From Halobacillus halophilus DSM 2266 (GTDB taxonomy: Bacteria; Bacillota; Bacilli; Bacillales; Halobacillaceae): DNA of 64,000 bases. Shown here piece by piece: positions 31,942-58,575 of the stretch. The stretch covers positions 3,348,001-3,412,000 of the forward strand of contig NC_017668.1 in assembly GCF_000284515.1 (NCBI RefSeq), in the 5' to 3' direction. The translations under genes and the position numbers were made by a program. The notes under the pieces are model-generated. The model saw only the letters and a list, made by a program, of their open reading frames with translations, did not search any database and was not told where the DNA came from. Position 1 is the first letter of the stretch, and each line of letters begins with the position of its first letter.

Positions 31942-32473
31942 GCAATAGGGCAGGTTAGTTGAATACTCAGCTTCGAGATATTGGATGGAAAAGGGGCTCC
32001 AGGGAAGGGCTCGCTTTCCGTGGGCATGTGGTGAGCTTCCTCAGGCTACGCCTTCCGGGATCTCACCGATCATGTTCATCCCACAGGAGTCTTCACCGTT
32101 CCCTTCCGCCCCTTTGCGATCATGGAGCGCTCGAAATCCTTTACGTATATACTCCATCTGAGGAAGAACGGCCTACGTTAAATTCCGAGTCTGTCCAAAG
32201 GGTAAAGCCCGTTATAGAAGCATTTTAGACAATTTTAGTTTCCCCGTTTCTCCTATTAGCAGGGTCCGTTCACAAGAAAACGATGGGTTGGTGGGGAAAT
32301 GGCGAGACTCCCGTGGGAGAAGGAACTAGGTGAGATCCCGCAGGGAGTGAAACGAGCGAGGAAGCTCACCGTTCCCCCATAGGAAAGCGAGTTATTTCCC
32401 CACCAGCCCTCCTCCATTTAACGTAAAGGACCCAATTGTCTCGAAACTGAGTCTTCCAGTATCGGGAGCTTAT
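31942..32473 (+). repeat. Long structured interspersed repeat, copy A
   Basis: About 530 bases. Left end CAATAGGGCAGGTTAG with ACTCAGCTTCGAGATA; right end TCTCGAAACTGAGTCTTC then CAGTATCGGGAGCTTATC. Inner hairpin arm 1 (about 31995-32110) carries CGCTTTCC and GATCATGTTCATCC. Inner arm 2 (about 32290-32400) runs from GGTGGGGAAATGGCGAGACTC to GGAAAGCGAGTTATTTCC and is flanked by GGGTCCGTT/AAGGACCC. It lies between the start of the nucleotidase gene and the end of the third protease gene. Non-coding; short frames inside are incidental. Confidence 0.88.
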
Positions 32474-32485
32474 CTTTAACACAGC

Positions 32486-32524
32486 AAAAAACCCTGAAAC
32501 CTATTAGGAAGGCTTCAGGGTTTT
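32486..32524 (-). terminator. Terminator of the third SLH protease gene
   Basis: AAAACCCTGAA / TTCAGGGTTTT around a 15-base loop, with T-rich sequence on the minus strand. Confidence 0.85.
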
Positions 32525-32552
32525 CTACTTTATACACTCGTAATCTAGCAAA

Positions 32553-34211
32553 CTATTGATTCAATACATTTGAAAGAATCAGAGAAAACTCAGCACGTGT
32601 AATCTCACTTGAAGGAAGGAACGTTCCATCTGGATATCCGGAAATGAATCCAGCTGCCTTCAAATCATGAACACTTTCATAATAGTAAGCATCTTCATTC
32701 ACATCACTGAATCTTTCAGAAGAAGATCCTTCAATCTTAAACGCACGATCAATAATCATCGCTACATCCCCGCGGTTGATCGCCTGATTCGGACGGAAGG
32801 TTCCATCTGTATAACCAGAAATGAAACCAGAAGATGTACCGGCCGAAATATAACCGGAACCGAATGAACTTGGACTTACATCAGGGAAATCCGTTGCTCT
32901 TTCTTCTCCGTTCAGTTGCAAAGCACGACCTACCATAGTGGCCGCTTCTTCTCGCGTAATAGATTGTTTCGCTTTAAACATACCATCGTCATAACCACTG
33001 ATTAAGTTTCCTTGGGAAAGATTTTCAACGGCACTGCTGTACCAGTAGCTTCTGTTAAAATCTTTAAAAGGTGTGGTTGGCGCTTGCGCAACCCCGTATC
33101 CGTAAGTATTATCTTTGCCTCCGTCACCTTTATCCAGTGAGTTGGAGATCAGCAGCTCTTTTCGTTCAGAGTCTGACATTTCAGGAAACAGCTGCTCATA
33201 TAAAGCAAGGATTCCTGTTACATGCGGCGCAGCCATTGAAGATCCACTCATGGTTGCATAGCCGGTAGGGAAATCATCATTTGTAATATAAGTACTTTCA
33301 ATTCTTGCGCCAGGAGCTGTGAAGTCGAGGGATGGTCCACTATACGTGTAATCCGAACCATTCAGCTTCTTGGTAACAGCGCCTACACTAACTACTTCTG
33401 GAAAGCGGGCCGGATAAAGAATATCATCGATATTTTCAGATACGCATACATCTTTATTGCCTGCGGCGGCTACCACCTGGACTCCAGCATTTCTAGCTTT
33501 TTTGATTGCATTTTTTGTGAGATCAGAAGGTTTACAGGATGTGAGACTTAGATTAATAATGTCTACACCTTGATCAATGGCCCAATCAATACCGGCCACC
33601 ACTTCTGAATTCAATCCGTTTCCTTCTTCATCGAGCACTTTCACCGCGTAAATCTCTGCATCAGGAGCGATGCCTATGGTGCCAATTTCGTTATCCTGGG
33701 CGGCTATGATTCCTGCAACGTGTGTTCCGTGACCATTATCATCTTCATAACCCTCGGTACCTTGCACAAAGCTGATACCTTTAGCTACATTCAAATCGGG
33801 GTGTTTACTTGCAATCCCGGTATCCAGGATAGCAATTTTAACTCCCTCACCCGACAGCCCCATGGATCTTGATTTGTTCATTTCTACTGAATCGGTTCCC
33901 CAGGAAGTTTCCTGGAAACTAACCTGAACTTGGCCGTCTTCTTCAATTGATTTGACTGCAGTTTCACCCTTCAACTCAGAAATCTTATTGCCTGGTATCG
34001 TTACCGCTACAGAATCAAGAGATTCATAGCGATAATGAATGGTGTGCGGGATATCCTTCAGTATATTTACATTAATTTCTTCATTATACTGAATTACCAC
34101 ACGCTCCGTTTTCTCCCCTTCTGAACCTTGATCAGAAGCTGCCAGAGAAGCAGAAGGCGTACCCAAAGCCCCTGAAACCAGTAACACCATGACAACCATT
34201 AACTTTTTCAA
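32553..34211 (-). CDS. S8 subtilisin-like protease with three SLH domains
   Basis: 552 residues from a TTG at 34211, chosen because GGAGGAGG lies 8 bases upstream and the product then begins with a normal signal peptide (KKLMVVMVLLVSGALG, cleaved near ASLAA). Propeptide about 35-100. S8 domain with D130 (ILDTG), H161 (GHGTHVAG) and S325 (GSSMAAPH). Three SLH domains at about 380-552. Two cysteines, C226 (LTSCKPS) and C256 (KDVCVSE), lie in the catalytic domain and could form a disulfide, unusual for extracellular subtilisins of Bacillus. The gene follows the amidase gene with a 79-base gap containing a hairpin, so partial cotranscription is likely. Confidence 0.93.
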   Translation of the reverse strand: MKKLMVVMVLLVSGALGTPSASLAASDQGSEGEKTERVVIQYNEEINVNILKDIPHTIHYRYESLDSVAVTIPGNKISELKGETAVKSIEEDGQVQVSFQETSWGTDSVEMNKSRSMGLSGEGVKIAILDTGIASKHPDLNVAKGISFVQGTEGYEDDNGHGTHVAGIIAAQDNEIGTIGIAPDAEIYAVKVLDEEGNGLNSEVVAGIDWAIDQGVDIINLSLTSCKPSDLTKNAIKKARNAGVQVVAAAGNKDVCVSENIDDILYPARFPEVVSVGAVTKKLNGSDYTYSGPSLDFTAPGARIESTYITNDDFPTGYATMSGSSMAAPHVTGILALYEQLFPEMSDSERKELLISNSLDKGDGGKDNTYGYGVAQAPTTPFKDFNRSYWYSSAVENLSQGNLISGYDDGMFKAKQSITREEAATMVGRALQLNGEERATDFPDVSPSSFGSGYISAGTSSGFISGYTDGTFRPNQAINRGDVAMIIDRAFKIEGSSSERFSDVNEDAYYYESVHDLKAAGFISGYPDGTFLPSSEITRAEFSLILSNVLNQ

Positions 34212-34257
34212 TAGATCTTCCTCCTCCAAAGTGCTCACTGCTGACAAATAATTGAAA

Positions 34258-34281
34258 GAGCGAACCAAAAAATGGTCGCTC
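34258..34281 (-). terminator. Hairpin between amidase and protease genes
   Basis: Minus strand GAGCGACC / GGTTCGCTC with a T-rich loop, followed by CTTTCAATTATTT. It could attenuate read-through from the amidase gene into the protease gene, since no separate promoter is obvious in the 47 bases that follow. Confidence 0.5.
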
Positions 34282-34289
34282 TTACATTA

Positions 34290-36089
34290 TTATTCTCTCC
34301 AATTGTAATAGTCTATGATCCCCATTGCAATAGCTTTAGCTGCCTCATCACGATATTTTTGTGTTTTTAATTTAGCAGCATCGTCATCATTTGTTAAAAA
34401 GCCAATTTCTGTGAGCACCGCTGGAAGATTAGTAGCTTTGATTACTCGATAGCCGGCATTTTTAATTCCACGGTCGGTCATGTCCATAGATTTGTGCAGA
34501 CGCTCATTAATATAACCGGCAAGTTTGTAGCTCTTATACTCGCGATCAGTCATTCCCTTAGCATAGTAGAAAGTTTCTACTCCATTCGCACTACTTAAGA
34601 AGGCATTCGCGTGAACACTGACGAAAGAATCCGCATTATTTCTATTTGCGATGTTTACTCGGCCATCCAGTGTTGGATACCAGTCGCTTGAGCGGGTCAT
34701 GACTACGTTGATTCCTGAGTCTCTTAAATACTCACGAACTTTAAGAGAAACATCTAAAACGACTTCTTTCTCTACCAATCCGTTAGCTACAGCACCTGGA
34801 TCTTTTCCGCCGTGTCCAGGATCAATGGCCACGGTACGATTCACACTTGGTTTGTCCGTTAAATAAGCTTCGTGGACATATCCTTCCACGCTTCCTGAGG
34901 AAACCAATCTCCAGCTTCCTTCTTCTTTATGAACATCAACCGCTTCTCCGGTAGTAAACTGACCAACCACGTCGTAGCTGGTTCCTGGCCCTTTACGTAC
35001 ATTTAAGGAATCGGCAGTTACAATTTTTTCAGCAATAACAGGCTTTGGAATGTCGGCTAAGTAAGCGCTGTGTACATATCCTTCCACGCCATTTGCGGAA
35101 ACCAATCTCCAGTCTCCATCCACTTCATGAACGTCAACTTCCTGATTATCGGAGTATTTTCCGACGACATCGTAGCTGATTCCTGGTCCTTTTCTTACAT
35201 TTAAGTTATCCGTCGTGACAATTTTTTCAGCAATAACTGGTTTAGGAATATCCGCTAAGTAAGCACTATGTACATACCCTTCGACGCCATTGCCAGAAAC
35301 GTACCTCCAGCTTCCATCTTCTTCATGGACTTTTACTTCCTGGCCATCTGAGAACTTTCCAACTACATCATAGCTGGTTCCCGGTCCTTTACGTACATTT
35401 AAGCTATCCGTCGTTACCATTTTCTCACCGATAACCGTTTCCGTACGGTCCGGCTCTGGCTGAGGCTCTGGGTCCTGGCTTACCGAGTCAACATTCCCGT
35501 CCATGGCACGCGCCATTAAGACAGAGAATTCTTCTCTTGTAATATCTTTACTTGGCTTGAATGTACCATCTGGATACCCAACGGTAATCTCTGCTGTGGC
35601 TACTTTATTAATCGGTGTGTAGTACCAGGCACTCTTTGCTACGTCTGTGAACGAGTGGCTGCTTGTCTCGTCTAAATCAAACGCTCGGGCAAGCAACGTG
35701 GCCATTTGTGCGCGTGTTACTTTTTCATTGGGATGAAATGTTCCGTCAGCATATCCACTGATAATCCCTTCCTCAGCAGCTGAAGCTATGTATCCGGAAG
35801 CATAATGTTCCTCTGTCACATCTGGAAATTTAGTATTTTGGCGATTGTTCTCTAAATCCAGGGACCTTCCAATCATCGTAGCGGCTTCCTGACGGGTAAC
35901 CGCATTTTTCGGTTTAAATGTATCATCCGGGTAACCGAAAATAATTTCCTGCTCGATTAAGTAATTGATCTCACTGGCATATTTGTCCGGGATATCCGAT
36001 AAGGCAGCATACACCTTATCTGTGGATTGAATGGTAGCGAATGTCATCACGATCATGGCAAACAGCAGACTACAGACTTTTCTCATCAT
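34290..36089 (-). CDS. SLH-anchored N-acetylmuramoyl-L-alanine amidase with three SH3b repeats
   Basis: 599 residues from the ATG at 36089 (GAAGGAG 10 bases upstream); the longer TTG readings lie too close to that site. Signal peptide about 1-29, three SLH domains (about 30-200), three nearly identical bacterial SH3 repeats (about 220-280, 290-350 and 365-420, each with LNVRKGPG), and an Amidase_3 domain (about 422-599). The zinc and catalytic pattern is seen in DPGHGG, VEKEV, SVHANA and TEIGFLTN. It would cleave the lactyl-peptide bond of peptidoglycan, held by both SLH and SH3b modules. The triple SH3b repeat is very regular, which suggests recent duplication. Confidence 0.95.
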   Translation of the reverse strand: MMRKVCSLLFAMIVMTFATIQSTDKVYAALSDIPDKYASEINYLIEQEIIFGYPDDTFKPKNAVTRQEAATMIGRSLDLENNRQNTKFPDVTEEHYASGYIASAAEEGIISGYADGTFHPNEKVTRAQMATLLARAFDLDETSSHSFTDVAKSAWYYTPINKVATAEITVGYPDGTFKPSKDITREEFSVLMARAMDGNVDSVSQDPEPQPEPDRTETVIGEKMVTTDSLNVRKGPGTSYDVVGKFSDGQEVKVHEEDGSWRYVSGNGVEGYVHSAYLADIPKPVIAEKIVTTDNLNVRKGPGISYDVVGKYSDNQEVDVHEVDGDWRLVSANGVEGYVHSAYLADIPKPVIAEKIVTADSLNVRKGPGTSYDVVGQFTTGEAVDVHKEEGSWRLVSSGSVEGYVHEAYLTDKPSVNRTVAIDPGHGGKDPGAVANGLVEKEVVLDVSLKVREYLRDSGINVVMTRSSDWYPTLDGRVNIANRNNADSFVSVHANAFLSSANGVETFYYAKGMTDREYKSYKLAGYINERLHKSMDMTDRGIKNAGYRVIKATNLPAVLTEIGFLTNDDDAAKLKTQKYRDEAAKAIAMGIIDYYNWRE

Positions 36090-36472
36090 ATTCAACAAGC
36101 TCCTTCTTAAAATAATTTAGTAAACCATTGTGAGAGAGGGACAGAGAGACTATGGCTAACATTTATCGGATGTAGCATTTCCTCCTTTTTCGATGTTCGA
36201 ACGGTTTGAGTGATTGCTATGTCAAAAATTGGATTGATTGTTGCTGGCACGTCTATACTAATATCGAAACCTGTCAGATAATGTTTATAGTAAATTAGTC
36301 TTATTTATTGAAAAAGTTGCTTAAAAAAGTTTAATATAAATTTACATGTGGTAAGAAACCCTGATTCTAAGCCTTTTTAACCTTTCCATAATTTCTAAAA
36401 CTTTCTTTTTAACCTATTCATTTCCAATTTATTCTGATAGATTAAGAAAGAATGAATTTAGGAGGGTGATGA
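36090..36472. other. Divergent promoter region of two wall-hydrolase genes
   Basis: 383 AT-rich bases between the amidase (minus) and glucosaminidase (plus) genes. Promoters for both must lie here, but no pair of boxes is convincing: CTGACA with TATAGA on the minus strand is spaced only 14 bases. No gene or riboswitch seen. Confidence 0.5.
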
Positions 36473-38386
36473 ATGAAGAAGGTAATCATGTCGATTTTTG
36501 TCGTATTTTTAGCTTTAACCTCAGTGGTCTCGACAGCTTTCGCGGAAGATGATATTACAGGAACACCATTCGAAGATGATCTGCGTGCTCTGATTGAAGC
36601 CGGGATCATGAGTGGATATGATGACGGTACCTATAGACCTAGCAAATCGGTCACGAGAGCAGAGTTCACCGTGTTCCTTAACGGGGCATTAGACCTACAG
36701 ATGGGTGATGGAGAATTACCAGAGGAATATTTCACAGATGTGGAACCTGATGACTGGTATTTCGAGTCGATCATGATCGCCTATAATAACGGGCTGGTCA
36801 ATGGTTATCCGGGTGGAGACTTCCAACCGAACAAGGTCATCACGAGACAAGACATGGCGATGATGATGATTAATGCGGCCAAGGCGAAAAACGTCGTATC
36901 AGAACGGAAACCTTTAGCTTTTGCCGATAATGAAGAGATTTCAAATTACGCGGTCGAATCAGTGGAAAGATTAACGTACCTGGAAATTATCAGTGGAAAA
37001 CAGCATGCAGACGGCTCCCTGTTCTTTGCTCCAAAAGACGAAACGTCACGTGGAGAAACGGCAGCTGTTATTAACCGGTTAATGAACGTATTGGACCCTC
37101 CGAAAGAGCTGGATTATAAAGTCGTCAGCTTGTCTCTCAATCAGGATCCGGTCGTTCAGGATGATTATGAAACCTATGAAGAAGCCGTCAGCCAAGCTGA
37201 TGATGATCAAGTGGTTCTGAAAGGAAATAATATTGTGTGGATGAATGAAGGAAGCGCGGTATCCAATGCGTACACCGTTCTCTATGATTCTAGTGATTTA
37301 AGTCGTTCGCTTACATATATGACTTCAGGTGTTGAAGTGGAATTATTGGAGATTAATGAAGATACCTTGAAGATTAAGCTTGCGGATACAACAGCCTATG
37401 TGGAGGCCGGTAAGATTAACCTGACGCCGCAGCATATGGTGAAAGACCGTTCCTATTACTACGAGAAAAATGGAGATTTGTACCACCGAATCTATAACTC
37501 TCTTACGGAAGGTTCGGCTGCTTACAAATACGGGGCAGCTCCGTCCTTCATGAAGACAGGCGAAAAGTATTACAGCTTTAACGGCAGCACCTTCTATTCT
37601 GAAGATGGCAGCCAAGCAGGCGAAGCTCATCAATACTTCAACCGCATGCCTCTCTATACCAACACCTCGTATACAGGAGAGCAGCTCGATGAATTCATCG
37701 CTTCTGAAGTGCCGGACAGTCCATTAATCGGAACTGGGGATGCTTTCAAAAAAGCAGAAGAACTGCACGGCACGAATGCTCTTTACCTGCTGGCACATGC
37801 GATTCACGAAAGTAACTGGGGCAAAAGTAAAATTGCCCGCGATAAAAACAACCTCTTCGGAATTGGGGCCAATGACGGCAATCCTTACCAAGACGCGTGG
37901 ACATATGAGAATTATGAAAAAGGAATACTGGCTGCGGCTTCTGAATTCATCGTACCAGGCTACTTTGACTCCAGTTCGTGGAAAGCAAGAGGCGCTCATC
38001 TCGGGAATAAGAGCTCAGGGATGAACGTGTATTACGCTTCTGATGTCTATTGGGGTCAGAAAATTGCCGGCCATATGTACCGGGCAGATACCTATTTAAG
38101 CAGCAAGTACGGAACGCCTAAAGAAAACGCAGCTAATGACCTGGCTGAAACCGTCACGTCTTATGTGAATGTGCGAGCCGAAGCCGATACAGGAGCAGAA
38201 AAGCTTTACACGCTTCCAAAAGCAAGCGAGACGGTACAAATTTTGAGCGAAACAGACGGTCTGGGTACGTGGTATCAAATTTCGCCGAAATCTATCGAAT
38301 CCAATACCTATGAGAATGCGTTTGTTTACAGTCATGGCTACTCCGCCTATGGAAATAGTCTCAGAAAATTACCGCTGAGTAAGTAA
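36473..38386 (+). CDS. SLH-anchored beta-N-acetylglucosaminidase (GH73-type) with SH3 domain
   Basis: 637 residues: signal peptide 1-24, three SLH domains (about 28-210), a linker of about 200 residues, a glucosaminidase domain (about 415-545) with the catalytic glutamate in HAIHESNWGKSK and the NNLFGIGAND motif, and a C-terminal SH3-like module (about 560-625, with YVNVRAEADTG). It would cleave the GlcNAc-(1,4)-MurNAc glycan bond in peptidoglycan, as LytD/LytG-type autolysins do. AGGAGGG is 6 bases before the ATG. Paired divergently with the SLH amidase, it probably acts in wall turnover and cell separation. Confidence 0.93.
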   Translation: MKKVIMSIFVVFLALTSVVSTAFAEDDITGTPFEDDLRALIEAGIMSGYDDGTYRPSKSVTRAEFTVFLNGALDLQMGDGELPEEYFTDVEPDDWYFESIMIAYNNGLVNGYPGGDFQPNKVITRQDMAMMMINAAKAKNVVSERKPLAFADNEEISNYAVESVERLTYLEIISGKQHADGSLFFAPKDETSRGETAAVINRLMNVLDPPKELDYKVVSLSLNQDPVVQDDYETYEEAVSQADDDQVVLKGNNIVWMNEGSAVSNAYTVLYDSSDLSRSLTYMTSGVEVELLEINEDTLKIKLADTTAYVEAGKINLTPQHMVKDRSYYYEKNGDLYHRIYNSLTEGSAAYKYGAAPSFMKTGEKYYSFNGSTFYSEDGSQAGEAHQYFNRMPLYTNTSYTGEQLDEFIASEVPDSPLIGTGDAFKKAEELHGTNALYLLAHAIHESNWGKSKIARDKNNLFGIGANDGNPYQDAWTYENYEKGILAAASEFIVPGYFDSSSWKARGAHLGNKSSGMNVYYASDVYWGQKIAGHMYRADTYLSSKYGTPKENAANDLAETVTSYVNVRAEADTGAEKLYTLPKASETVQILSETDGLGTWYQISPKSIESNTYENAFVYSHGYSAYGNSLRKLPLSK

Positions 38387-38401
38387 TTTCATTCCTATTA
38401 C

Positions 38402-38436
38402 AAAGGAGCAACCGCTATATGGTTGCTCCTTTTTTA
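38402..38436 (+). terminator. Terminator after the glucosaminidase gene
   Basis: AAAGGAGCAACC / GGTTGCTCCTTTTTT with a 7-base loop. Confidence 0.9.
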
Positions 38437-38487
38437 TGTTATATTAAGAAGGCAGGAATGTGTAAATTAAAGGAGTCTCATCATACC

Positions 38488-39219
38488 ATGAAGCACGTTA
38501 ACATTTTGGGTGTTCCATTCTCAATAACGAACCATTCGACACTTGTCGAACAGCTGAATCAGCATATACAAAAACACGAAAAATCTTTCGTCATAACCGC
38601 GAATCCCGAAATTGTCATGCGCGCGAATCAAGAAGAAGCTTATATGAAGAGTCTTCACCGTGCTACATACATAACCGCAGACGGGATTGGTATCGTCAAA
38701 GCCTCCCGTCTCTTAGGCCAGACCCTTCCTGAACGAGTAACCGGGTATGATGTTATGATCGAGATGTTAAAGTTAGCCGACTTGAACCATTACCGGATTT
38801 ATCTGCTGGGAGCCCAAAGGGATACCCTGGAGGAAGTGAAGAAACATATCCAGCAGTTCTATCCTCACATACAAGTCGTAGGCTCTCATGATGGATATTT
38901 CGACTGGCAGCATAACACTATTTCCGAGGAAATAATGCAATCTTCACCAGATCTCGTCTTTGTCGCTCTAGGGGCTCCTAAGCAGGAGAACTGGATCGCA
39001 GAGCATATTGACCAGTTCAATAAAGGTGTCTTTCTATGTGTTGGCGGCAGCTTTGACGTCATCGCTGGTAAAGTGAAACGAGCACCGCTCAGCTGGCAGA
39101 ACAAAAACCTCGAATGGTTTTACCGACTTCTGCAGCAGCCGACACGCTGGAAAAGAATGCTTGCTCTTCCCCGGTTTTCATACCACGTGATTCGTCAAAA
39201 AGTGAAGCGTTCCTTATGA
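38488..39219 (+). CDS. WecG/TagA/CpsF family glycosyltransferase (SCWP operon)
   Basis: 243 residues from the ATG at 38488 (AAAGGAG upstream, spacing 12); the longer frame runs into the terminator. GT26 fold: TANPEIVMRAN near 40-50, the TADGIGIV motif near 68-75, TGYDVM near 92, and FVALGAPKQENWI near 157-169, with a basic C-terminal membrane-binding tail. TagA of this family transfers ManNAc to undecaprenyl-PP-GlcNAc. In csaB loci the family builds the linkage or repeat unit of the wall polymer that SLH domains bind. Its stop overlaps the next start (ATGA). A paralogue is at 53851-54564. Confidence 0.92.
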   Translation: MKHVNILGVPFSITNHSTLVEQLNQHIQKHEKSFVITANPEIVMRANQEEAYMKSLHRATYITADGIGIVKASRLLGQTLPERVTGYDVMIEMLKLADLNHYRIYLLGAQRDTLEEVKKHIQQFYPHIQVVGSHDGYFDWQHNTISEEIMQSSPDLVFVALGAPKQENWIAEHIDQFNKGVFLCVGGSFDVIAGKVKRAPLSWQNKNLEWFYRLLQQPTRWKRMLALPRFSYHVIRQKVKRSL

Positions 39220-40775: not shown

Positions 40776-40791
40776 TAAAGGAGGCCCACCC

Positions 40792-42372: not shown

Positions 42373-42417
42373 CTGAAAACAATGCGGGGTATTTTCATTG
42401 ATAGATTACTAAGCTAT

Positions 42418-42960
42418 AGATCCGGTTACTGTAGGACACGGTTTCGAGATATGGGGCGGAGAAAGGGGCTCCAGGGAACGGCTCGCTTTCCGCGGGCATG
42501 TGCTGAGCTTCCTCGGGCTTAACAGCCCTGCGGGATCTCACCGATCATGTTCATCCCGCAGGAGTCTTCGCCGTTCCCTTCCGCCCCTTTGCGATCATGG
42601 AGCGATCGAAAATCTCTGAATAAACACTTTACAATGAACAAGGATCATCTATAATCCACCTTGAGTTTTAATGTTTGTTTACATGTAGGAACCCTGTTAT
42701 AGAAGCATTTGTGGCAGATTCATCTTGTCTCCTGTCTCCTATAGAAGGGTCCGTTCGCCGTATATCGATGGGGTGGTGGGGAAATGGCGAGACTCCCATG
42801 GGAGAAGGGACTAGGTGAGATCCCGCAGGGAGTGAAACGAGCGAGGAAGCTCACCGTTCCCCCATAGGAAAGCGAGTTATTTCCCAACCAGCCCTTCTCC
42901 ACATATTGTAACGGACCCCAACTATCCCGAAACGGAGTCTTCAACAAACGGGAGCTTATC
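42418..42960 (+). repeat. Long structured interspersed repeat, copy B
   Basis: About 540 bases with left end CCGGTTACTGTAGGACACGG plus TTTCGAGATA, and right end TCCCGAAACGGAGTCTTC plus AAACGGGAGCTTATC. Arm 1 (about 42485-42600) and arm 2 (about 42770-42895) as in copy A, with the same GGGTCCGTT/AACGGACCC pair around arm 2. It separates csaB from the operon genes upstream, so it may impose a terminator or carry a promoter in between. Confidence 0.88.
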
Positions 42961-43009
42961 TTTACTATTAATATAGAAATTTTTCATAAAAAAAGAAAAG
43001 GAAGTGATG

Positions 43010-46988: not shown

Positions 46989-47010
46989 AGAGTCTGAGGA
47001 CTCTTTTTTT
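46989..47010 (+). terminator. Terminator
   Basis: AGAGTC-TGAG-GACTCT followed by TTTTTT. Confidence 0.85.
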
Positions 47011-47042
47011 AATGTCTCTGTCCCCCCTGTTGATTTTCCAGT

Positions 47043-47650
47043 AAAGCTCCCGATACTGGAAGACTCAGTTTCGAGACATTGGAGGAGCGGAAGGTCCTCC
47101 GGCGGACGATTTCGCTTTCCGGCCCTGCATGACGCAGGGTCGTTCGACGTTGCCACAGGACGTGGCGATCTTAGTCGAACTTCTTATATGTGGTAAGCTT
47201 CCTCAGGCTTCGCCTTCCGGGATCTTACCGATCATGTTCATCCCGCAGGAGGTCTTCATCGTCCCCCTCCGGACCTAGCCGAATGAGAACATTGAAACCA
47301 CTTAAGATATCTTCTTGATGACCAAAAAAAGCATGGGAATATGAGCCTGCATTCATGCTATAAAGATGTAAAGATAGCCTGCCATAGAAGCATTTAAGAC
47401 CAGTTACGAAGGAGAGCATACTCTCTTCTGGCAGGGTCCGTTATTCTCCCGCGGCTGAGTTGGTGGGGAAATGACGAGACTCCCATGGGAGAAGGAACTA
47501 GGTGAGATCCCGCAGGGAGTGAAACGAGCGAGGAAGCTCACCGTTCCCCCATAGGAAAGCGAGTTATTTCCCCAACAACTCTCATTTTTTTTGGCAACGG
47601 ACCCAGTATATCTCGAAACTGAGTCTTACAGTAACCTGCCCTATTGTTTA
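47043..47650 (+). repeat. Long structured interspersed repeat, copy C
   Basis: About 610 bases between convergent genes. Left end AAGCTCCCGATACTGGAAGA with CTCAGTTTCGAGA; right end TCTCGAAACTGAGTCTTACA with GTAACCTGCCCTATTG. Compared with copies A, B and D the two outer end types are swapped while the inner arms keep their order. Arm 1 holds a 60-base structured insert at 47121-47180. Arm 2 (about 47460-47575) is the standard one. Confidence 0.88.
47121..47180 (+). repeat. 60-base structured module inserted in copy C
   Basis: Three small hairpins: CCCTGC/GCAGGG, then GTTCGAC/GTCGAAC enclosing GCCAC/GTGGC with an AGGAC loop. It follows CGCTTTCC. A related 60-base module is in copy E at 58052-58111. 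Confidence 0.8.
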
Positions 47651-47703
47651 AGAAGCAGTTGTTAAACAATCAACAATAACTTCTAATAGAACCTTTTTAT
47701 TAG

Positions 47704-50527: not shown

Positions 50528-50535
50528 CCTCCTTC

Positions 50536-50925: not shown

Positions 50926-50930
50926 TGTGG

Positions 50931-51764
50931 TTAATTTGCTTCATTAGAACCGGAAATTGTAAGCAGGCTCATCTGGCTCTGATTCCAGAACCGTACAGGA
51001 GCGATACTCGTTCCCAGCCCGCTATCAATATATAACGTTGAACCGGAATCTACTTGATAGACTCCTTTCGTTAGATCCGGAAATAAGCCCTGATCTGGGG
51101 CCACTACCGCTCCAATGAATGGGAATCGAACCTGCCCGCCGTGCGTATGGCCGCTCAAAATCAAGTCGGCCGGAATGTCGTCGTACTTCGTAACAACGTT
51201 TGGAGAATGAGATAGAAGAATCGTATAAGCACTGTTGTCGATCCCTTCAAATGCTTGTTCCATATTTTCATGATCTGTGGAACTGTCTGCAACCCCGGCT
51301 ATATTGATCGTCGTCTTCTCCCGCTGGAGGGTAACATGGGTATTGTCCAGCATCGTAACGTTTCTTTCCCGAAGCCCCTGGAACAATTCTTCTGTCCGCT
51401 CATTTTCCCATTCATGATTGCCCGATACATAATAGACGTCTTCCTGGATGGCTTTCAATTTTTCTGCCAGGTTAAAAACATGTTGTAACTGCTCGGTACT
51501 ATGGTCGACCAAATCTCCGGTAATGACGATTAGATCAGGGTTCAATTCTTCAGCTGTACGAACCAGTTTTTCATTTTCGGCTCCGAAAACCTTATTATGT
51601 AAGTCGGTAATTTGTAATATTTCAAGCTCCTCGCCCGCGGGAAGCTCGCTGCTTTCAAAATTTACGTGATTAACTTTAAATACATTGGTGTCATAGATCG
51701 CTTTTCCAATCGAGGCAGCGCCTAGTAGGATCATCAATGCTAAGAAACCTAGTCGTATTTTCAT
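50931..51764 (-). CDS. Membrane-anchored metallophosphoesterase (YkuE-like)
   Basis: 277 residues. An N-terminal membrane segment (about 4-22) is followed by a calcineurin-like domain with metal motifs LQITDLHN (near 50-57), VITGDLVDH (near 80-88), YVSGNHEW (near 111-118), LSHSP (near 184-188) and SGHTHGGQ (near 203-210). This is the family of cell-envelope phosphoesterases such as B. subtilis YkuE. The substrate is uncertain. AGGAGG lies 6 bases before the ATG. Confidence 0.92.
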   Translation of the reverse strand: MKIRLGFLALMILLGAASIGKAIYDTNVFKVNHVNFESSELPAGEELEILQITDLHNKVFGAENEKLVRTAEELNPDLIVITGDLVDHSTEQLQHVFNLAEKLKAIQEDVYYVSGNHEWENERTEELFQGLRERNVTMLDNTHVTLQREKTTINIAGVADSSTDHENMEQAFEGIDNSAYTILLSHSPNVVTKYDDIPADLILSGHTHGGQVRFPFIGAVVAPDQGLFPDLTKGVYQVDSGSTLYIDSGLGTSIAPVRFWNQSQMSLLTISGSNEAN

Positions 51765-52145
51765 GGGGCACCTCCTTGCTCTTTTAAGATTCTCTCATAC
51801 ATCAGACGATCATTCCTCCTAAATGTTTCAAAAAATAAGAAATTCACACTAATTCTTTTGATTTACAAATTGGCAGGATCATCAAATATTCAAGGTTTTT
51901 TCAAATAGGTTCACGCTTCTGTATAAACTGAGCCGCTGCTTTTGTTCGGAAAAATGATATTCTGCCCTTTCACTGCAGGAAACATCGAAAGTGAGGCAGG
52001 AAAAGCAGATTTATTCAGAACTCGGCTGCGCCAGTAAAGGTTCGGCTGCCTTTCCTACTAACGGCTTATTTTACTTTTTAAAAAGCTTACTGCTCTACTT
52101 TTAGGGTATGGAATATTATTGGAAGATACAAAGGAGGAACAATTT
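51765..52145. other. Divergent promoter region
   Basis: 381 bases between the phosphoesterase and the general-stress gene. A sigma-B-like promoter lies at 52085-52109. The phosphoesterase promoter is not clear. A G-rich partial dyad near 51990-52060 has no recognised meaning. Confidence 0.5.
52085..52109 (+). promoter_or_regulatory. Sigma-B-like promoter
   Basis: GCTTAC (52085-52090), 13 bases, GGGTAT (52104-52109). It compares with the sigma-B consensus GTTTAA-N12-15-GGGTAT: perfect -10 and near -35. The downstream gene is a YflT-type stress protein, a known sigma-B class. Confidence 0.6.
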
Positions 52146-53012
52146 ATGGATAAGAAAATTATAGGCGGCGTATTTAGTAAAGTAGGAAATGCCGAACAAG
52201 CCATTATGGATCTTCAACATCACGGTTATGGATCCAATGACATATCTGTTTTTGCAAAAGATAAAAGTAAAGTGGCCGTGTTGGAAGATGAGATGGATAC
52301 ATCTGTCAGCTCCAACAAAGGCGGACGAGGCAAAAACTCCGGAAAAGGAGCAGGTTTAGGTGCCTTATCCGGCGGCGTGCTCGGTGGAATTGGCGGTTTA
52401 ATTACAGGACTGGGTCTGCTTGCGATTCCTGGACTTGGACAAATTGCCGCGGCAGGCCCAATCGCTGCTGCCCTTACTGGCGCAGGAGTAGGCGCTGGTG
52501 GCGGAGGAATTGTCGGTGCGCTTGTAGGTGCCGGAATGTCCGAGAATGATGCCCGGATGTATGAGAGTCATCTGAAAGAAGGAAAAGTCATTGTCATTGT
52601 GGAAGCCACTGAAAAACTTCAGGACAAAGTTTACCGCGCATTTATTACAAATAAAACAGAGAATAAATCTATGTATCCTGAAGCTTATCATGATCATGAA
52701 ACTCACCGTGACTCTTCAGCCCATGATCGAAATCATAAGGCTCATACGAATACAGAAGCCCATAACCACGATCATGACTCTAACCATGATTCTACAGACA
52801 ATCATAGAAATAAAAGCACTCGTACAAATAAGGAAGATCCTGGCCATGAACGCAAGAAGGAAGTTAACAGCCATGAGGACCATTCGGCTTCCACCAAGAG
52901 CCACGGAAACCCGGATGATCCTTTTTCCAATGTCAGAACTCATGAGCCTGAAAAACGCACGAGAACTTCCGAGAGACACCACTCTTCTCACTCAAGTCAT
53001 AAACGCTCCTAA
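52146..53012 (+). CDS. General stress protein YflT-type with glycine zipper and His-rich tail
   Basis: 288 residues from the ATG at 52146 with AAAGGAGG upstream. N-terminal YflT-like domain (about 1-60, IIGGVFSKVGNAEQAI), a Gly/Ala-rich hydrophobic hairpin (about 65-150, a glycine zipper that may enter the membrane), and a hydrophilic tail of about 110 residues with about 20 histidines plus many Asp, Ser and Asn. The tail is not found in typical YflT proteins; it may bind metal or hydrate the protein under salt stress, but this is inferred. A sigma-B-like promoter and a strong terminator make it a monocistronic stress gene. Confidence 0.85.
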   Translation: MDKKIIGGVFSKVGNAEQAIMDLQHHGYGSNDISVFAKDKSKVAVLEDEMDTSVSSNKGGRGKNSGKGAGLGALSGGVLGGIGGLITGLGLLAIPGLGQIAAAGPIAAALTGAGVGAGGGGIVGALVGAGMSENDARMYESHLKEGKVIVIVEATEKLQDKVYRAFITNKTENKSMYPEAYHDHETHRDSSAHDRNHKAHTNTEAHNHDHDSNHDSTDNHRNKSTRTNKEDPGHERKKEVNSHEDHSASTKSHGNPDDPFSNVRTHEPEKRTRTSERHHSSHSSHKRS

Positions 53013-53028
53013 TTAGACCACATTTAAA

Positions 53029-53068
53029 AGCCGGGATCTTCTGATGCGCAGAAGTTCCCGGTTTTTTT
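53029..53068 (+). terminator. Terminator of the stress-protein gene
   Basis: CCGGGATCTTCTG / CAGAAGTTCCCGG followed by TTTTTTT. Confidence 0.9.
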
Positions 53069-53117
53069 ATTATAGCTTAGTTAAAGGATGTAGTTGATTC
53101 TCATAGAGAGTTATTAA

Positions 53118-53770
53118 ACAATCGGGCCGGATTGTGGAAGACTCAGCTTCGAGATACTTTTATGACAAGAAAGGTCCTGCGGGGGATGATTCGCTTTCCG
53201 CGGGCATGTGCTGAGCCTCCTCAGTCTTCGACTTCCGGGGTCTCACCGATCATGTTTATCCCGCAGGAGTCTTCATCATCCCCCTCCGGACCTGGCCAAA
53301 TCAGAAGCTCGAAGCCACTTCAACCATCACCTGCATAATGAAGTATTAGACCATGTAGTTAGGATATAACGACCCACACAGCCCGTCATGATAACATTCC
53401 CTACAGATTACAGAGGAGCACCATTCTCTTCTGGAAGGGTCCGTTCGCAACATTATAGTTGGGGTGGTGGGGAAATGATGAGACTCCCATGGGAGAAGGG
53501 ACTAGGTGAGATCCCACAGGGAGTGAAACGAGCGAGGAAGCTCACCGTTCCCCCGTAGGAAAGTGTTCAAATGTGGAATCACCCCGAAAGACACGACCAG
53601 CATAAGCCGACCATCAAAAGGATTGTGGTTTTTCAATCCGTTGATGAGCGGCTTATGTCTCGAGTGTCTGGGTGATGGAACAAGACGAGTTGTTTCCGTA
53701 GCCGCCCTTCTTCTTTTTGGGCGACGGACCCAAGTTATCTTGAAACTGAGTCTTCAAGTATCGGGAGTTT
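53118..53770 (+). repeat. Long structured interspersed repeat, copy D
   Basis: About 650 bases between convergent genes; the longest copy because arm 2 contains a 122-base insertion at 53564-53685. Left end AATCGGGCCGGATTGTGG and AAGACTCAGCTTCGAGATA; right end ATCTTGAAACTGAGTCTTCA and AGTATCGGGAG. Arm 1 is at about 53185-53290 and arm 2 at about 53460-53715, flanked by GGGTCCGTT/GACGGACCC. Confidence 0.88.
53564..53685 (+). repeat. Nested-hairpin module inserted in copy D
   Basis: 122 bases placed between GGAAAG and CGAGTT of the standard arm. Paired blocks from outside in: ATCACC/GGTGAT, GACAC/GTGTC, CATAAGCCG/CGGCTTATG, CATCAA/TTGATG, GGATTG/CAATCC, so one long stem can form. Not found in the other copies. 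Confidence 0.8.
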
Positions 53771-53800
53771 TTCTGTAAGAACTTAAGTCTAAAACTAAAA

Positions 53801-53833
53801 AAAGTGCTGGATCGTTTAATGATCCAGCACTTT
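53801..53833 (-). terminator. Terminator of the second wall-polymer operon
   Basis: Minus strand AAAGTGCTGGATC-7-GATCCAGCACTTT then TTTTT. Confidence 0.9.
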
Positions 53834-53850
53834 AAAGTAAGCTTATACTT

Positions 53851-54564
53851 TTATTTCCGCTCTTTCCAGACCTTATAGAGGAACGTCGGCAGTTTAATCT
53901 GACGCTTGAGCCTCCAGGGTTCTGTAATTAAACGGTACAGCCATTCAATACCGAACTTCTGGAAGAACCTTGGCGCACGCTTCACCCGGCCGGAAATAAC
54001 GTCAAACGAACCACCGACTCCCTGGAATATCCGTACATCCAGGTCCTTCATGTGATCCACAATCCAATATTCCTGCTTCGGACTTCCTAACGCTACAAAA
54101 AGAACATCCGGTTTCGCCTCGTTAATCGTCTGGATCACATGCTCCTGATCCTTCTCGTAACCATCGAGAACGCCCGCCACTTTAAGGTTAGGGTACTTTT
54201 TCAAAAGACCGTCCTTCGCTTTTTCAGCTACACCTGGTTTCGCTCCATAAAGGAACACCGATTTATCATGGGTCGATGCCTGCTCGCACAAGGCAAGAAG
54301 CATATCAATGCCGGTCACGCGGCTTGAGATATCCCCCCGGTTGATCTTTGAAGCGAGCAGAACCCCAACCCCATCAGGAATCTGGTACGTAGCCTTATTT
54401 AATAAGTTCTTTAAATTGGGATCCTTTTGAGCCTGTAGAATCTTCTCCGGGTTAATGGCTACAATAAAGGACTGCCTTCTCTGTTCAATATCCGCTATGG
54501 TGTTTTGCTTGAGTTCCTCGTAAGAATAACTGCTTACGTCGACTCCTAAGAACTGTTCCTTCAT
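53851..54564 (-). CDS. WecG/TagA/CpsF family glycosyltransferase (second cluster)
   Basis: 237 residues, GT26 fold with AINPEKILQAQ near 34-44, IPDGVGVLLA near 63-72, RVTGIDML near 82-89, FVALGSPKQEYWI near 155-167 and a basic membrane-binding tail. It differs from the paralogue at 38488-39219 but keeps all motifs. Here it is cotranscribed with a UDP-ManNAc dehydrogenase (16-base gap), so the transferred sugar is likely ManNAc or ManNAcA, by context. The ribosome site (AGGTG) is weak, in keeping with translational coupling to the gene upstream. Confidence 0.9.
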   Translation of the reverse strand: MKEQFLGVDVSSYSYEELKQNTIADIEQRRQSFIVAINPEKILQAQKDPNLKNLLNKATYQIPDGVGVLLASKINRGDISSRVTGIDMLLALCEQASTHDKSVFLYGAKPGVAEKAKDGLLKKYPNLKVAGVLDGYEKDQEHVIQTINEAKPDVLFVALGSPKQEYWIVDHMKDLDVRIFQGVGGSFDVISGRVKRAPRFFQKFGIEWLYRLITEPWRLKRQIKLPTFLYKVWKERK

Positions 54565-54580
54565 GATTTCACCTGGACCC

Positions 54581-55858
54581 CTATCCGTTTTTTGAATCTC
54601 CCAGTCGTTTTGTGAGAAATCCTGCGTCTTTCCATTCGTCTAACGATAGTGCATTTTTCGTATCAAATACAAGTCTACTTCTCATTTTACCTTGTATGTG
54701 TGCAGGGTCAAGCTGTTTAAACTCATCGTGATCTGTGAGAATTACGACAATATCGGCTCCCTCTAGAGCTTCATCCATGCTCTGAGTCTGGTTGGAAGCG
54801 ACATTTTCTTTAATATGCGGATCGTAGGAGGAGAAGCTGATGCCTCTCTCTACAAGTTCCAGAATTACTTTCAAGGACGGGCTTTCACGCTGGTCATCGA
54901 TATTCGCTTTGAAAGAAAGACCAAACAGGGCCACTTTTGGATCCTGGATGTGCTGTTCTTTCAGGAACGATTCGACCTCTCCTGCCGTGTACACCGGCAT
55001 ATGATCATTCGTATTACGGGACAGCTGTATGATCTTCGAAAGATCCGGCTGGATTTCGGCCAGGAACCATGGATCCACGGCGATACAGTGTCCACCGACG
55101 CCTGGTCCAGGTGTATGAATATTTACACGCGGGTGATAATTGGCCAGCTTAATGGCTTCCCACGAATTCACGCCGATTTGATCACTGATTAACGCCAGCT
55201 CATTCGCAAAAGCGATGTTCACATCACGGTACGTATTTTCAATTACTTTGGCCATTTCCGCTGTTGTAGCATCGGTTAAATGGATATTTCCTTTTACAAA
55301 GGACAGGTACAAGTCCCTGGTCATCTCGGAAGACTTCTCATTGATCCCTCCGACAATGCGGTCATTATCCACCAGCTCCTGAAATACTTTACCTGGGATC
55401 ACACGCTCAGGTGAATGGGAGACGAATAACTCTTCTCCTATCGTAAGTCCCGTTTCTTCCAATACTGGAAGCATAACGTCTTCTACCGTTCTTGGCGGAA
55501 CCGTTGATTCTAAAATGACAAGATTCCCTTCCTTTACAAACGGCACAATCGACTCAGTTGCTTTTTTCACGTAATCAAGATTCGCTGTTTTGTCCTCCCG
55601 AATAGGAGAAGGAACCGCGATGACGAATACATCCGCTTCCGTTGGTTCGAGAGAGGCCGTGAATTTTCCGCTGTCTACCGCTTCTTCCAGACGCTCCTGA
55701 AGACCATTTTCTTCTATATGAAGCTGTTTAGCATTTACCATCTCTACAGCTTTCCTATTTACATCAACACCATGAACCTGGTGACCGTTAATCGCAAACA
55801 TAACGGATGTAGGCAGGCCGATATAACCAAGCCCGACGACACAGAGTGACTTCTTCAT
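54581..55858 (-). CDS. UDP-N-acetyl-D-mannosamine dehydrogenase (second copy)
   Basis: 425 residues from the ATG at 55858 (GGGAG 7 bases upstream); the longer frame lacks a ribosome site. Rossmann motif GLGYIGLP at 9-16, SPERVIPG near 149-156, catalytic C258 in GPGVGGHC. In the second position motif the usual Cys of CPERV is a Ser here. It shares length and motif positions with the dehydrogenase at 1975-3258 and would make UDP-ManNAcA for the wall polymer. It is the first gene of a two-gene minus-strand operon with the TagA-type gene. Confidence 0.9.
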   Translation of the reverse strand: MKKSLCVVGLGYIGLPTSVMFAINGHQVHGVDVNRKAVEMVNAKQLHIEENGLQERLEEAVDSGKFTASLEPTEADVFVIAVPSPIREDKTANLDYVKKATESIVPFVKEGNLVILESTVPPRTVEDVMLPVLEETGLTIGEELFVSHSPERVIPGKVFQELVDNDRIVGGINEKSSEMTRDLYLSFVKGNIHLTDATTAEMAKVIENTYRDVNIAFANELALISDQIGVNSWEAIKLANYHPRVNIHTPGPGVGGHCIAVDPWFLAEIQPDLSKIIQLSRNTNDHMPVYTAGEVESFLKEQHIQDPKVALFGLSFKANIDDQRESPSLKVILELVERGISFSSYDPHIKENVASNQTQSMDEALEGADIVVILTDHDEFKQLDPAHIQGKMRSRLVFDTKNALSLDEWKDAGFLTKRLGDSKNG

Positions 55859-56387
55859 AACCATACTCCCTTTCTCTATCTGAACCATTCCTATTAATAT
55901 CGACTTCTATGCGGGCGATATTATGGGGTGTTTTTTCCATTTATCTATTTATTCCTTTTAAAAAATAAGGTTGATTTAAAATTCAGACTGCCTGCTATAT
56001 TAAATTATGTATGCCGATTGGATCGTCATGAAAAATCCCCGCAAGCGGGCACACTCTACATAGTTCGGTTGCAATCTTCCGTTTATGACGTTCGGGGAAT
56101 GCTTTTCCTTAGCAGGGCAATTTTAAACATGATAGATCCTGCTGCAAGCGTTAGATAAAAAGCCAGTTTCTCAACTTCTTATTGTACCTTATTTCTGCTT
56201 GGTAAGCTATTATGATCATGTCTTCACATAAATTTATTATACGGCTTTGCGACCTTTACATTCAACTTCTATTACATTCTTATCAATCTTGTAAACATCC
56301 CTGATCACACATAGACAGTCGAATAGTAATGGTTTATACTTCAATATGTCATATCATAGAATATTCCAAACATTGAGGTGTTCACTA
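55859..56387. other. Divergent intergenic region
   Basis: 529 bases between the dehydrogenase gene and the polymerase-like gene. No gene, repeat or riboswitch recognised. A small GC-rich hairpin CCCGC/GCGGG is at about 56036-56050. Promoters for both directions should be here but are not obvious. Confidence 0.5.
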
Positions 56388-57860
56388 TTGCCTAAAATTT
56401 TACATAAAGATTTTTACACGAAATTATTACTTTTATTCATTATTTTTCAACCTGTATTAGACATCCTTACGTTCTTATCCATTCGCTGGACGGACTCCAG
56501 TTTAACCATCGGCATTGTTGTGCGTGTGCTGTTCATGGCCCTTTCCTTATGGTTTATTTTGTTCGGCAATTCGAGCCGTTATAAGAAACCGATTATTCTT
56601 TATTTAGCTGCCCTCGCCGCTGCTTTTGGATTTGGACTTGTGTACAATTACTTCGCCAAACCTATTTTTGATCCATTTACAGAACTGCAATTCGTAGCTA
56701 AGACCGCTTATTTCTCAATTATGCTTGGCTCTTATTTGCTGTTGTTCACCACTATTGAGAAGGTTTCCACCGTTCGCCTTAGAATTCTCCAAGCGATTTC
56801 AGCGGCCATGCTGATCGTTTCCATTTCCTTGCTAGTAGCGATCTTAACAGGCACTTCAACGGAAACCTACGAGTGGAATAAGTTTGGCTATAAAGGGTGG
56901 TTCTTTGCGGGAAATGAACTGGGATCCATCGTATCGATCAGTTTCCCTCTTGTTTACCTTTATGCTTTGTATAAAATTGAAAGCTTGAAGAATTCTTACC
57001 TTTTTATACCCGTCGTATTACTGGCCATCGTATCAATTCTGATTGGAACCAAGGTTCCTTATTTTGCTGTACTGATGGCAGCGGTGATTGTGTTCTTCAG
57101 CTACCTTATTTATTGGCTCATTCAATGGAAAAAGAAACAAAAAGGATCCTTGCTCACGCTGCGCCTCGTGCTTTCTTTCTGTTTCCTGCTTCTGTTTGCG
57201 GCTGTATCCCCGTTTTCTCCTGCATTCTCTAACGTAGCTGGGGATATCGGGGCCATTGAGGAAAAAACAGCGGAACAAGAGGAAAAGGATAAACCATCGG
57301 ATACCGGGGATCAGGATCCGGGAGATAAAGAAAGTGAAGGCTCTTCAGATAGCGATCAAGCTAAACAGGAAGAAGAGCAGGCAAAGCTGATGGATTCTCC
57401 GATTCTAGTAATCCTTTTAAGTGCCCGTAATCTGTATTTCGCCGAACTCTATCAAGATTATACGAACGCGGACATCGTTCAGAAAACATTTGGTATGGGG
57501 TATGCCGGAAACTATACAGACATGGAGGACAGGAAATTAATCGAGATGGATTTCTTTGATCTATTCTTTTCTTACGGAATCTTAGGCTTTACTTTAATCC
57601 TTCTGCCGTTCTTATTTATTATCGGTCTGTTTGTTAAGCTGCTGTTCCAGGTTCCAGGTCGACTGCTCCATCCGGAGAATCTGCTGATTCTTTTATCAAT
57701 CGGCTTTGGTACCGGCATCGCCTTTATCGCCGGTCATGTGCTCTATGCTCCCGCTGTCAGCATTTATCTTGCTGTGGCTATGTCGCTTCTCATCATTAAT
57801 ATGTTAAAAATGCAAAACGATCACCGGGAAGCGAAACAACTCGCCTCCTCATCCAAATAG
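56388..57860 (+). CDS. O-antigen ligase/polymerase-like membrane protein
   Basis: 490 residues from a TTG at 56388 with GAGGTG 7 bases upstream (the ATG at 56346 has no site). About 10-11 membrane helices and one large outside loop with an extremely acidic segment (EEKTAEQEEKDKPSDTGDQ, then SDSDQAKQEEEQ). That is the expected place for the loop of Wzy/WaaL-type enzymes, which join or polymerise lipid-linked sugars. The acidic stretch is unusual and may reflect salt adaptation. It faces the dehydrogenase/TagA pair and could polymerise or attach the same polymer. Confidence 0.75.
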   Translation: MPKILHKDFYTKLLLLFIIFQPVLDILTFLSIRWTDSSLTIGIVVRVLFMALSLWFILFGNSSRYKKPIILYLAALAAAFGFGLVYNYFAKPIFDPFTELQFVAKTAYFSIMLGSYLLLFTTIEKVSTVRLRILQAISAAMLIVSISLLVAILTGTSTETYEWNKFGYKGWFFAGNELGSIVSISFPLVYLYALYKIESLKNSYLFIPVVLLAIVSILIGTKVPYFAVLMAAVIVFFSYLIYWLIQWKKKQKGSLLTLRLVLSFCFLLLFAAVSPFSPAFSNVAGDIGAIEEKTAEQEEKDKPSDTGDQDPGDKESEGSSDSDQAKQEEEQAKLMDSPILVILLSARNLYFAELYQDYTNADIVQKTFGMGYAGNYTDMEDRKLIEMDFFDLFFSYGILGFTLILLPFLFIIGLFVKLLFQVPGRLLHPENLLILLSIGFGTGIAFIAGHVLYAPAVSIYLAVAMSLLIINMLKMQNDHREAKQLASSSK

Positions 57861-57871
57861 CTCTATCCACG

Positions 57872-57915
57872 CCGGACATCCACCTGCTTTACTAAGCCAT
57901 GGATGTCCGGTTTTT
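57872..57915 (+). terminator. Terminator
   Basis: CCGGACATCCA / TGGATGTCCGG with TTTTT, 17-base loop. Confidence 0.85.
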
Positions 57916-57956
57916 AAATCCTAAACTCTTTTAAAATTACGTGTTGATCTTACAGA

Positions 57957-58575
57957 TAAGCTCCCGATACAGGAAGACTCAGTTTCGAGATAGTTTGGCC
58001 CGTTACTAAAATGGGGATGAGGGTTGGTTGGGAAATAATTCGCTTTTCTGTGGCCCTACACGACGTTGGGTCGATCGACGTTGCCACAGGACGTGGCGAC
58101 TTTAGTCGATCCTCCTTTTACCAGGAGCCTCCTCGGTCGTTTCACTCCCTGTGGGGTCTCGCCTCGCTCCTTCTCCCGCGGGAGTCTCATCATTTCCCCA
58201 CCAACCCAACTATAATGTTGCGAACGGACCCTTCTAGAAGAGAAAGATTCTCCTGCTTAATCTGAATTAAATGCTTTTATGATAGGCGATTGCGGGTCAT
58301 TAAATCCTGGAAGTAGGTAGAAAACCACCTGGTCTAATTACTCAAATTCATCATCACGCAGGTGATGTTTGAAGTAGTTTCGATCTTCTGATTTGGCAAG
58401 GTCCGGAGGGGGATGGTGAAGACTCCTGCGGGATAAACATGATCGGTGAGACCCCGGAGAGCGTTAGCTCGAGGAGGCTCAACACATGCCCGCGGAAAGC
58501 GAATCATCCCCCGCAGGAGCTTTCCTCTCATAAAATACCTCGAAACTGAGTCTTCAGCTATCCGGCCCTATTGTG
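57957..58575 (-). repeat. Long structured interspersed repeat, copy E (inverted)
   Basis: About 620 bases in the opposite orientation to copies A, B and D. Left end AAGCTCCCGATACAGGAAGA with CTCAGTTTCGAGATA; right end CTCGAAACTGAGTCTTC with AGCTATCCGGCCCTATTG. Arm 2 is on the left (about 58025-58215) and holds a 60-base structured module; arm 1 is on the right (about 58410-58520). It separates the polymerase-like gene from the MurJ-like gene. Confidence 0.88.
58052..58111 (-). repeat. 60-base structured module inserted in copy E
   Basis: A relative of 47121-47180 of identical length. It keeps the GCCAC/GTGGC inner stem and the AGGAC loop. The outer stem is GATCGAC/GTCGATC where copy C has GTTCGAC/GTCGAAC, so both sides changed together. 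The first small hairpin here has one mismatch. Confidence 0.8.

Follow-up and report, generated by a model that had tools for sequence, protein, structure and literature searches.

Intergenic repeats of Halobacillus halophilus are very probably old copies of a composite IS1595-type miniature element with exchangeable interiors

The window analyzed here is a stretch of 64,000 nucleotides from Halobacillus halophilus (contig NC_017668.1, C1:3348001-3412000), whose genome comprises 4,170,008 bases in 3 contigs. Five long repeats in this window, c1 to c5, are very probably old copies of a composite miniature inverted-repeat transposable element (MITE) that was moved in trans by an IS1595-family transposase and that carries exchangeable cassettes. 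In the proposed architecture, an outer shell would be formed by the terminal inverted repeat (TIR) and some 20 nt that reach to a core containing GGG. In the inner cassette, a variable 8-nt inner arm and a 19-bp collar (AAGACTCAGTTTCGAGATA) would accompany two diverged hairpin arms in inverted arrangement, with Bacillaceae-1 or other hairpins present in some copies. The sequence blocks, two end types, collar motif, and two hairpin arms given at five positions in the original prediction are seen in all five copies. It is unusual that the outer ends stay fixed while the middle differs and flips between strains.

Family size and genome context

The whole genome was searched for further copies, as had been suggested. 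The 20-base inner-end motif GAAGACTCAGYTTCGAGATA, at ≤3 mismatches, has 409 matches in the 4.17-Mb H. halophilus genome, and the reversed control has 0. Because each full copy carries two motifs, the genome contains approximately 200 copies. A sample of 864 kb of host sequence, made up of the window and further fetched stretches (the own sample), contains 49 composites, 1 bare palindrome, and 16 lone motifs at ≤4 mismatches. The copies vary in size. Exact 19-mer matches occur in Halobacillus, Thalassobacillus, and a few other Bacillales among the matches listed. At ≤2 mismatches, the motif is present in 41 of 61 genomes, with counts from 363 in H. halophilus down to 1 to 6 in several congeners (G003, G005, G006, G011, G018, and G020). 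Five copies in 27 kb had been considered dense, but random placement of 205 copies gave at least five in some 26.6-kb stretch in 99.75% of simulations, so the window is ordinary in this respect.

The copies had also been described as intergenic throughout, and the family sample agrees: none of the 49 composite midpoints lies inside a chosen open reading frame (ORF), with ORFs contained in the element set aside. The putative terminators in front of four of the window copies were read from the flanks. The neighboring genes are tandem for 33 composites, convergent for 14, and divergent for 2, compared with 273, 89, and 103 background intergenic regions, respectively. Divergent regions are avoided (p = 0.0013), and the enrichment in convergent regions is not significant for these 49 composites (p = 0.13).

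Element ends, target duplications, and the IS1595 partner

Profiles of the 49 copies show that conservation fades about 42–45 nt outside the collars. From flanks and intact copies, the outer end of the intact relatives is an inverted repeat, GGCTCTGTTAAA-N6-TGTTGATT. The blocks previously taken as the ends of the repeats are real, but they belong to the inner module, and intact relatives run about 35–50 nt further on each side. A total of 32 near-exact TIR pairs were collected from the fetched DNA, two of which are autonomous IS1595 elements. Their 8-bp flanks are identical in 18 pairs and show one mismatch in 6, two in 4, and three or more in 4; chance 8-base agreement is about 3e-5 (random positions at similar spacing, a control unmatched for AT content). 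The AT content of 11 identical duplications from an earlier scan is 91%, versus 58% in the sampled genome. Target duplications of 8 bp rich in AT are given as a feature of the IS1595 family in the parts of two reports consulted (PMC8101967, PMC12561309). No transposase gene lies inside the element, the longest open frame being 36–114 codons in the 17 TIR pairs shorter than 1,500 nt.

Two autonomous elements of the same bacterial family, of 1,619 bp (L356, with TTAAATAA on both sides) and 1,999 bp (L358, with AATTCTTT on both sides), share the 12-bp ends of the MITE (GGCTCTGTTAAA) and its second block, TGTTGAT, at equal spacing. Matches to the NCBIfam IS1595 model NF033547 were obtained for the ORFs of both (9.9e-63 and 1.2e-60, respectively). 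Because of these ends and the duplications, movement of the whole element is attributed to an IS1595 transposase. The transposase-free element would have been mobilized in trans by such an enzyme, presumably now missing from H. halophilus, and each insertion would create an 8-bp AT-rich target duplication. Among 44 genomes of the bacterial family, 2 contain the IS1595 transposase domain (PF12762). Relatives also hold collar-free MITEs with these ends, including two of 174 bp made up of the TIR and one hairpin arm, suggesting that the GC-rich arm is the body of simpler IS1595-type MITEs.

A 1,017-bp element in genome G013 (L317:1500-2517) has MITE-type ends, a 150-codon passenger frame, and a C-terminal IS1595 transposase fragment. 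This fragment matches PF12762 with E = 0.0038, under the curated cut-off, and the flanking 8-mers differ at 2 bases.

Two other transposon families were considered as the source of the MITE and rejected. For the ISL3 family, the ends of the host's own ISL3 elements (GGCTCTAGAATATTTGTTGGGG, GGTTCTAAGTCAATTGTTGGGG) match in the first bases only, and the second block is spaced differently. For the IS6/IS240 family, which was judged on transposase presence, PF13610 has 0 matches in the own genome; 9 of the 44 genomes of the bacterial family were matched, 2 over the cut-off. Separately, three near-identical ISL3-family insertion sequences were located in the own genome at C1:1661101, 1967497, and 2128703, with 8-bp duplications such as ATTTTTTT.

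A plasmid or phage origin was also considered and rejected. When the whole c4 region was searched against plasmid and phage records, 3 plasmid records were matched, in the arm only, and no phage record was matched. Arm 1 alone matched 9 plasmid records (Priestia, Paenibacillus, Niallia, and Bacillus) at 75–82%. The arm follows an exact GGCTCTGTTAAA in L364 and L365, in which a right TIR was sought at ≤3 mismatches and not found. In the Priestia and Niallia plasmids L359, L360, L361, and L362, the GC-rich arm sits in another outer frame, with ends like GAGGTTGAGACATAAC and TTTTGTCCCAGCCTC.

Presence and absence between strains

A 400-kb stretch of the own genome contains 30 composites, of which 29 are syntenic in the close strain G001. 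In the reverse direction, counterparts in the own genome exist for 18 of 20 G001 composites. Clean empty sites were identified in both directions. The insertion at own position 965774 (TAATAACG/TAATAATG) is represented by one copy of the target in G001; for the insertion at G001:C2 159650 (TAAATTAA twice), the own genome has a single similar copy. The composite at G001:C2 365360 is likewise absent from the own genome, and its duplication has decayed. In the more distant G014, 18 of the 30 sites are syntenic (15 absent, 2 with motif, and 1 unclear), and target collapse at the empty sites is invisible there owing to divergence.

Segmental duplication without precise ends is ruled out by the TIRs, target duplications, and empty sites. 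A non-autonomous mobile element had been one of three possibilities raised in the original prediction, and it is this one that the inverted ends, the 8-bp target duplications, the empty sites, and the autonomous insertion sequences with matching ends support.

Exchange and inversion of the interiors

The interiors act like swappable cassettes in shells that stay in place, a pattern that a single genome could not reveal. Among the 49 composites, the interior is inverted with respect to the shell in 20, takes the commoner (same) orientation in 26, and is unclear in 3. Between the own genome and G001, the interior orientation is opposite at 4 of 12 scorable loci while the shell orientation is equal, and c5, judged by eye, also differs in this way. 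At 17 loci shared by the two genomes, the flanks are mostly about 90–95% identical. Among the corresponding interiors, 4 have no matching piece, one matches at 97% over 37 nt only, one at 92%, and the others at 73–85%, and the ortholog is the best interior match at 1 locus.

The 34 ends of these 17 loci were used in a rank test, in which the G001 ends were ranked by similarity region by region (chance mean rank 17.5). The ortholog ranks first at 24 ends for the flank and 27 for the shell, at 2 for the GGG core (which hardly varies), at 0 for the inner arm, and at 1 each for the collar and the interior. The mean rank is 2.1 for the shell, 17.9 for the inner arm, 17.1 for the collar, and 16.6 for the interior. 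When the ends are aligned, the switch is visible by eye at most of them; exceptions include 834645 at its right end and 729860 at its left end, in both of which the interior beside the collar matches too. Two smaller sets, scored in the same way for shell and interior, point the same way. In G019 (4 loci), the ortholog ranks first for the shell at 8 of 8 ends and for the interior at 2 of 8. In a further G001 set (7 loci, at least one repeating the first set), the values are 9 of 14 and 2 of 14.

At the c4 site, G019 has the shell alone, joined at CGGG. A shell-only pattern scan gave 4 matches in the 864 kb of own DNA, every one with a collar, and 8 matches in 0.9 Mb of related contigs, 2 of which lack a collar by eye. 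Either a site-specific enzyme or gene conversion may exchange the cassettes at the GGG core, and the interiors may be flipped through collar–collar recombination or may arrive in either orientation; these steps are less certain than the movement of the whole element.

Bare palindromes consist of two outward-facing collars about 22 nt apart. They occur at 27 places in the contigs L061-L180 (e.g., L082:4404-4474 and L092:3446-3505) and in the own genome at C1:3327853-3327912. By sequence, the bare palindrome is the reciprocal of the shell-only site. It was not accepted as proof of a cassette circle, and the 27 copies in related contigs sit in unrelated flanks. The motif TGAAAC-N15-17-CGT[AC] starts 10–12 nt beyond the GGGCAG side in 10 of the 27 bare palindromes and beyond the other side in 0, with 0.0019 expected per site; some of the sites may be mutual orthologs. 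This motif presumably resembles an extracytoplasmic function (ECF) sigma promoter.

Two mechanisms of exchange were weighed. One, put forward tentatively and with rather less than an even chance, is that hundreds of MITE shells in Halobacillus and its relatives serve as docking sites with the GGG core as attachment site, at which a site-specific recombinase would swap non-coding hairpin cassettes, in either orientation, more quickly than the flanks diverge. Site-specific recombination at the GGG core is consistent with the unvarying boundary and with the site that has a shell alone, as is homology-limited gene conversion. The other mechanism, to which we give a chance nearer to even but still short of it, retains the same MITE and has the interiors exchanged by RecA-dependent gene conversion among copies scattered over the genome, with cleavage of the long hairpins as a possible trigger; the boundary near the GGG core would then mark fading homology. 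Consistent with this, similarity between non-orthologous copies is 0.87 in the collar and falls to 0.50–0.63 in the shell. Collar–collar recombination would flip interiors too, as is reported for Wolbachia insertion sequences (PMC3004938). However, if breakpoints were scattered across the 37 conserved nt formed by core, inner arm, and collar, many inner arms should be retained, and none of the 34 inner arms of the main set ranks first. Site-specific exchange and gene conversion are rated close to each other.

Several observations weigh against the composite MITE with exchangeable cassettes. The PF12762 transposase was searched for in the own genome and not found. Among the 32 TIR pairs, 8 have two or more flank mismatches, and no window copy retains both TIRs and a perfect duplication, c3 alone having a possible one with 7 of 8 bases identical. 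Of the 29 syntenic composites, 23 are common to G001 under a lenient rule for presence (in 1 of these 23, the gap contains no collar), and several of the 6 absent ones have left end remnants, so these differences are partly deletions. The inner arm is orthologous at 3 of 8 ends in G019 and at 3 of 14 ends in the further G001 set, which also weakens the objection to gene conversion raised above. A greater likeness of cassettes within than between genomes is not clear (13/24 in the own genome and 11/13 in G001), and the evidence for concerted evolution of cassettes within a genome is mixed. No recurrent recombinase was found among the ORFs within 3.5 kb of the 27 bare palindromes (one cluster occurs at 3 loci), a search made in place of a genome-wide survey.

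Bacillaceae-1 RNA and pairing of the hairpin arms

The Rfam family Bacillaceae-1 (RF01690) was identified at 97 places in the own genome. In the own sample, 17 of 18 matches lie inside composites and the remaining one lies near a lone collar; 34 of the 49 composites carry none, 13 carry one, and 2 carry two. Both c3 (47124-47190, minus strand, 68 bits) and c5 (58055-58121, minus strand, 64.6 bits) carry a match within an arm, above the gathering cut-off of 35. The original prediction had raised the possibility of a structured RNA. That the repeats are genes for such an RNA, with Bacillaceae-1 as one part, would agree with these 97 places and with the strong folds predicted for the repeats, and yet it appears very unlikely. 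In a pairing test restricted to the arms, and thus not covering Bacillaceae-1, 24 interiors were put in a single orientation and 93 pairs with ≥60% Watson–Crick cells were scored. A double Watson–Crick change occurs in 34 of the 93 pairs, as expected for such an RNA, but G-T and A-C mismatches are equally frequent (43 and 46). With no G-U preference, the arm pairing appears to be maintained as DNA; this argues against a structured RNA while still being compatible with transcription. The copies are, moreover, mobile and variable in size.

The third possibility raised, a chromosome-organizing repeat kept for its position, could draw on the approximately 200 copies and on the location of all 49 sampled copies outside chosen ORFs, but no evidence for it was found here, the family is almost missing from the six congeners named above, and 15 of 18 syntenic sites in G014 lack the element, so we consider this role extremely improbable.

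The five copies in the window

The window copies are old, and their putative membership in the MITE family rests on homology to intact copies. Judged by their ends, c1, c2, and c4 are oriented forward (plus strand) and c3 and c5 reverse (minus strand). TIR remnants, each with 6 of 26 mismatches, are left ends in c3 and c4 and a right end in c5; at the outer ends of c1 and c2, a remnant was looked for and none is recognizable. Copy c1 spans 31914-32480, around the inner span 31942-32473 reported earlier, with collars at 31962-31980 and 32437-32455 and the arm 2 frame at 32262-32433. Copy c2 spans 42414-42968, with collars at 42433-42451 and 42923-42941 and the arm 2 frame at 42747-42918. The outer ends of both are decayed and their boundaries approximate.

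Copy c3 spans 47014-47693, from the TIR remnant GGTTCTATTAGA...TGTTGATT (47668-47693) to ...GACAGAGAC, and its interior is inverted relative to its ends. Its possible target duplication is ATTAAAAA at 47006-47013 and AATAAAAA at 47694-47701 on the minus strand. Copy c4 spans 53074-53795, with the TIR remnant AGCTTAGTTAAA...AGTTGATT at 53074-53099 and an approximate right boundary. The alignment places an extra hairpin-forming insert in its arm 2, at 53564-53684 on the plus strand with approximate limits. This insert represents a second hairpin type (GACACGACC/TGGCATAAGC... GATGGAACAAGACGAG) that also occurs in L316 and L303, near the Bacillaceae-1 position of other copies. Copy c5 spans 57924-58573, with the right TIR remnant at 57924-57949 and an unrecognizable left outer end. 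Compared with 11 relatives, most of the c1–c5 sites show no synteny.

Two further repeats were noted in the window. A near-identical hairpin pair (CCACCTCAGGTC...GACCTGAGGTGG) at 27311-27354 and 29323-29366 flanks the ORF at 27440-29056. Three 198-nt direct repeats at 34847-35435, within the ORF at 34290-36098, correspond to a repeated protein segment.

Relation to known systems and significance

Precedents exist for IS1595 MITEs (PMC3852290), for inversions between terminal repeats (PMC3004938), and for mosaic miniature elements (PMC4133298). A 165-bp MITE of Haloquadratum is linked to ISHwa6 (inverted repeat 25, direct repeat 8; PMC3852290). Like it, the Halobacillus family lacks a transposase and has IS1595-type ends and 8-bp duplications, but the Halobacillus element is far larger and nested, with about 200 copies and an exchangeable and invertible interior. 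TIMEs, which derive from Tn3, are also miniature elements that build mosaic non-autonomous elements; they differ in their Tn3-type ends and mostly single copies, and the passages of PMC4133298 considered describe no fixed shells with replaced interiors. In the inversions of insertion sequences between TIRs, content likewise flips between inverted repeats, whereas the Halobacillus flip is bounded by inner collars and its interior is non-orthologous between strains (PMC3004938 for the former). The model of Bacillaceae-1, a family listed in PMC2864571, is matched well above its cut-off; here it is a hairpin module inside a MITE.

No description of this element, or of a family in which the shell stays in place and the content is replaced between sister strains, was found among the titles and abstract openings listed from the open-access literature. 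Integron gene cassettes are interchangeable segments at a fixed recombination point and resemble the Halobacillus cassettes in this respect. Unlike integron cassettes, the Halobacillus contents are non-coding and occupy hundreds of dispersed sites, and an integrase was not found, the recombinase search being limited to the palindrome neighborhoods.

In the own genome, a mobile element houses most of the sampled copies of a catalogued RNA family, a finding that bears on the annotation of that family. A conspicuous GC-rich intergenic repeat of Bacillaceae is explained, at least partly, as the body of IS1595-type MITEs. Insertion sites are shared between sister strains, yet the contents found at them are non-orthologous, and the interiors cannot be used to date such insertions. 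If the exchange is site-specific, the family would represent a non-coding cassette system dispersed over the chromosome; if it is gene conversion, the long palindromes would offer an extreme case of it that is easy to measure.

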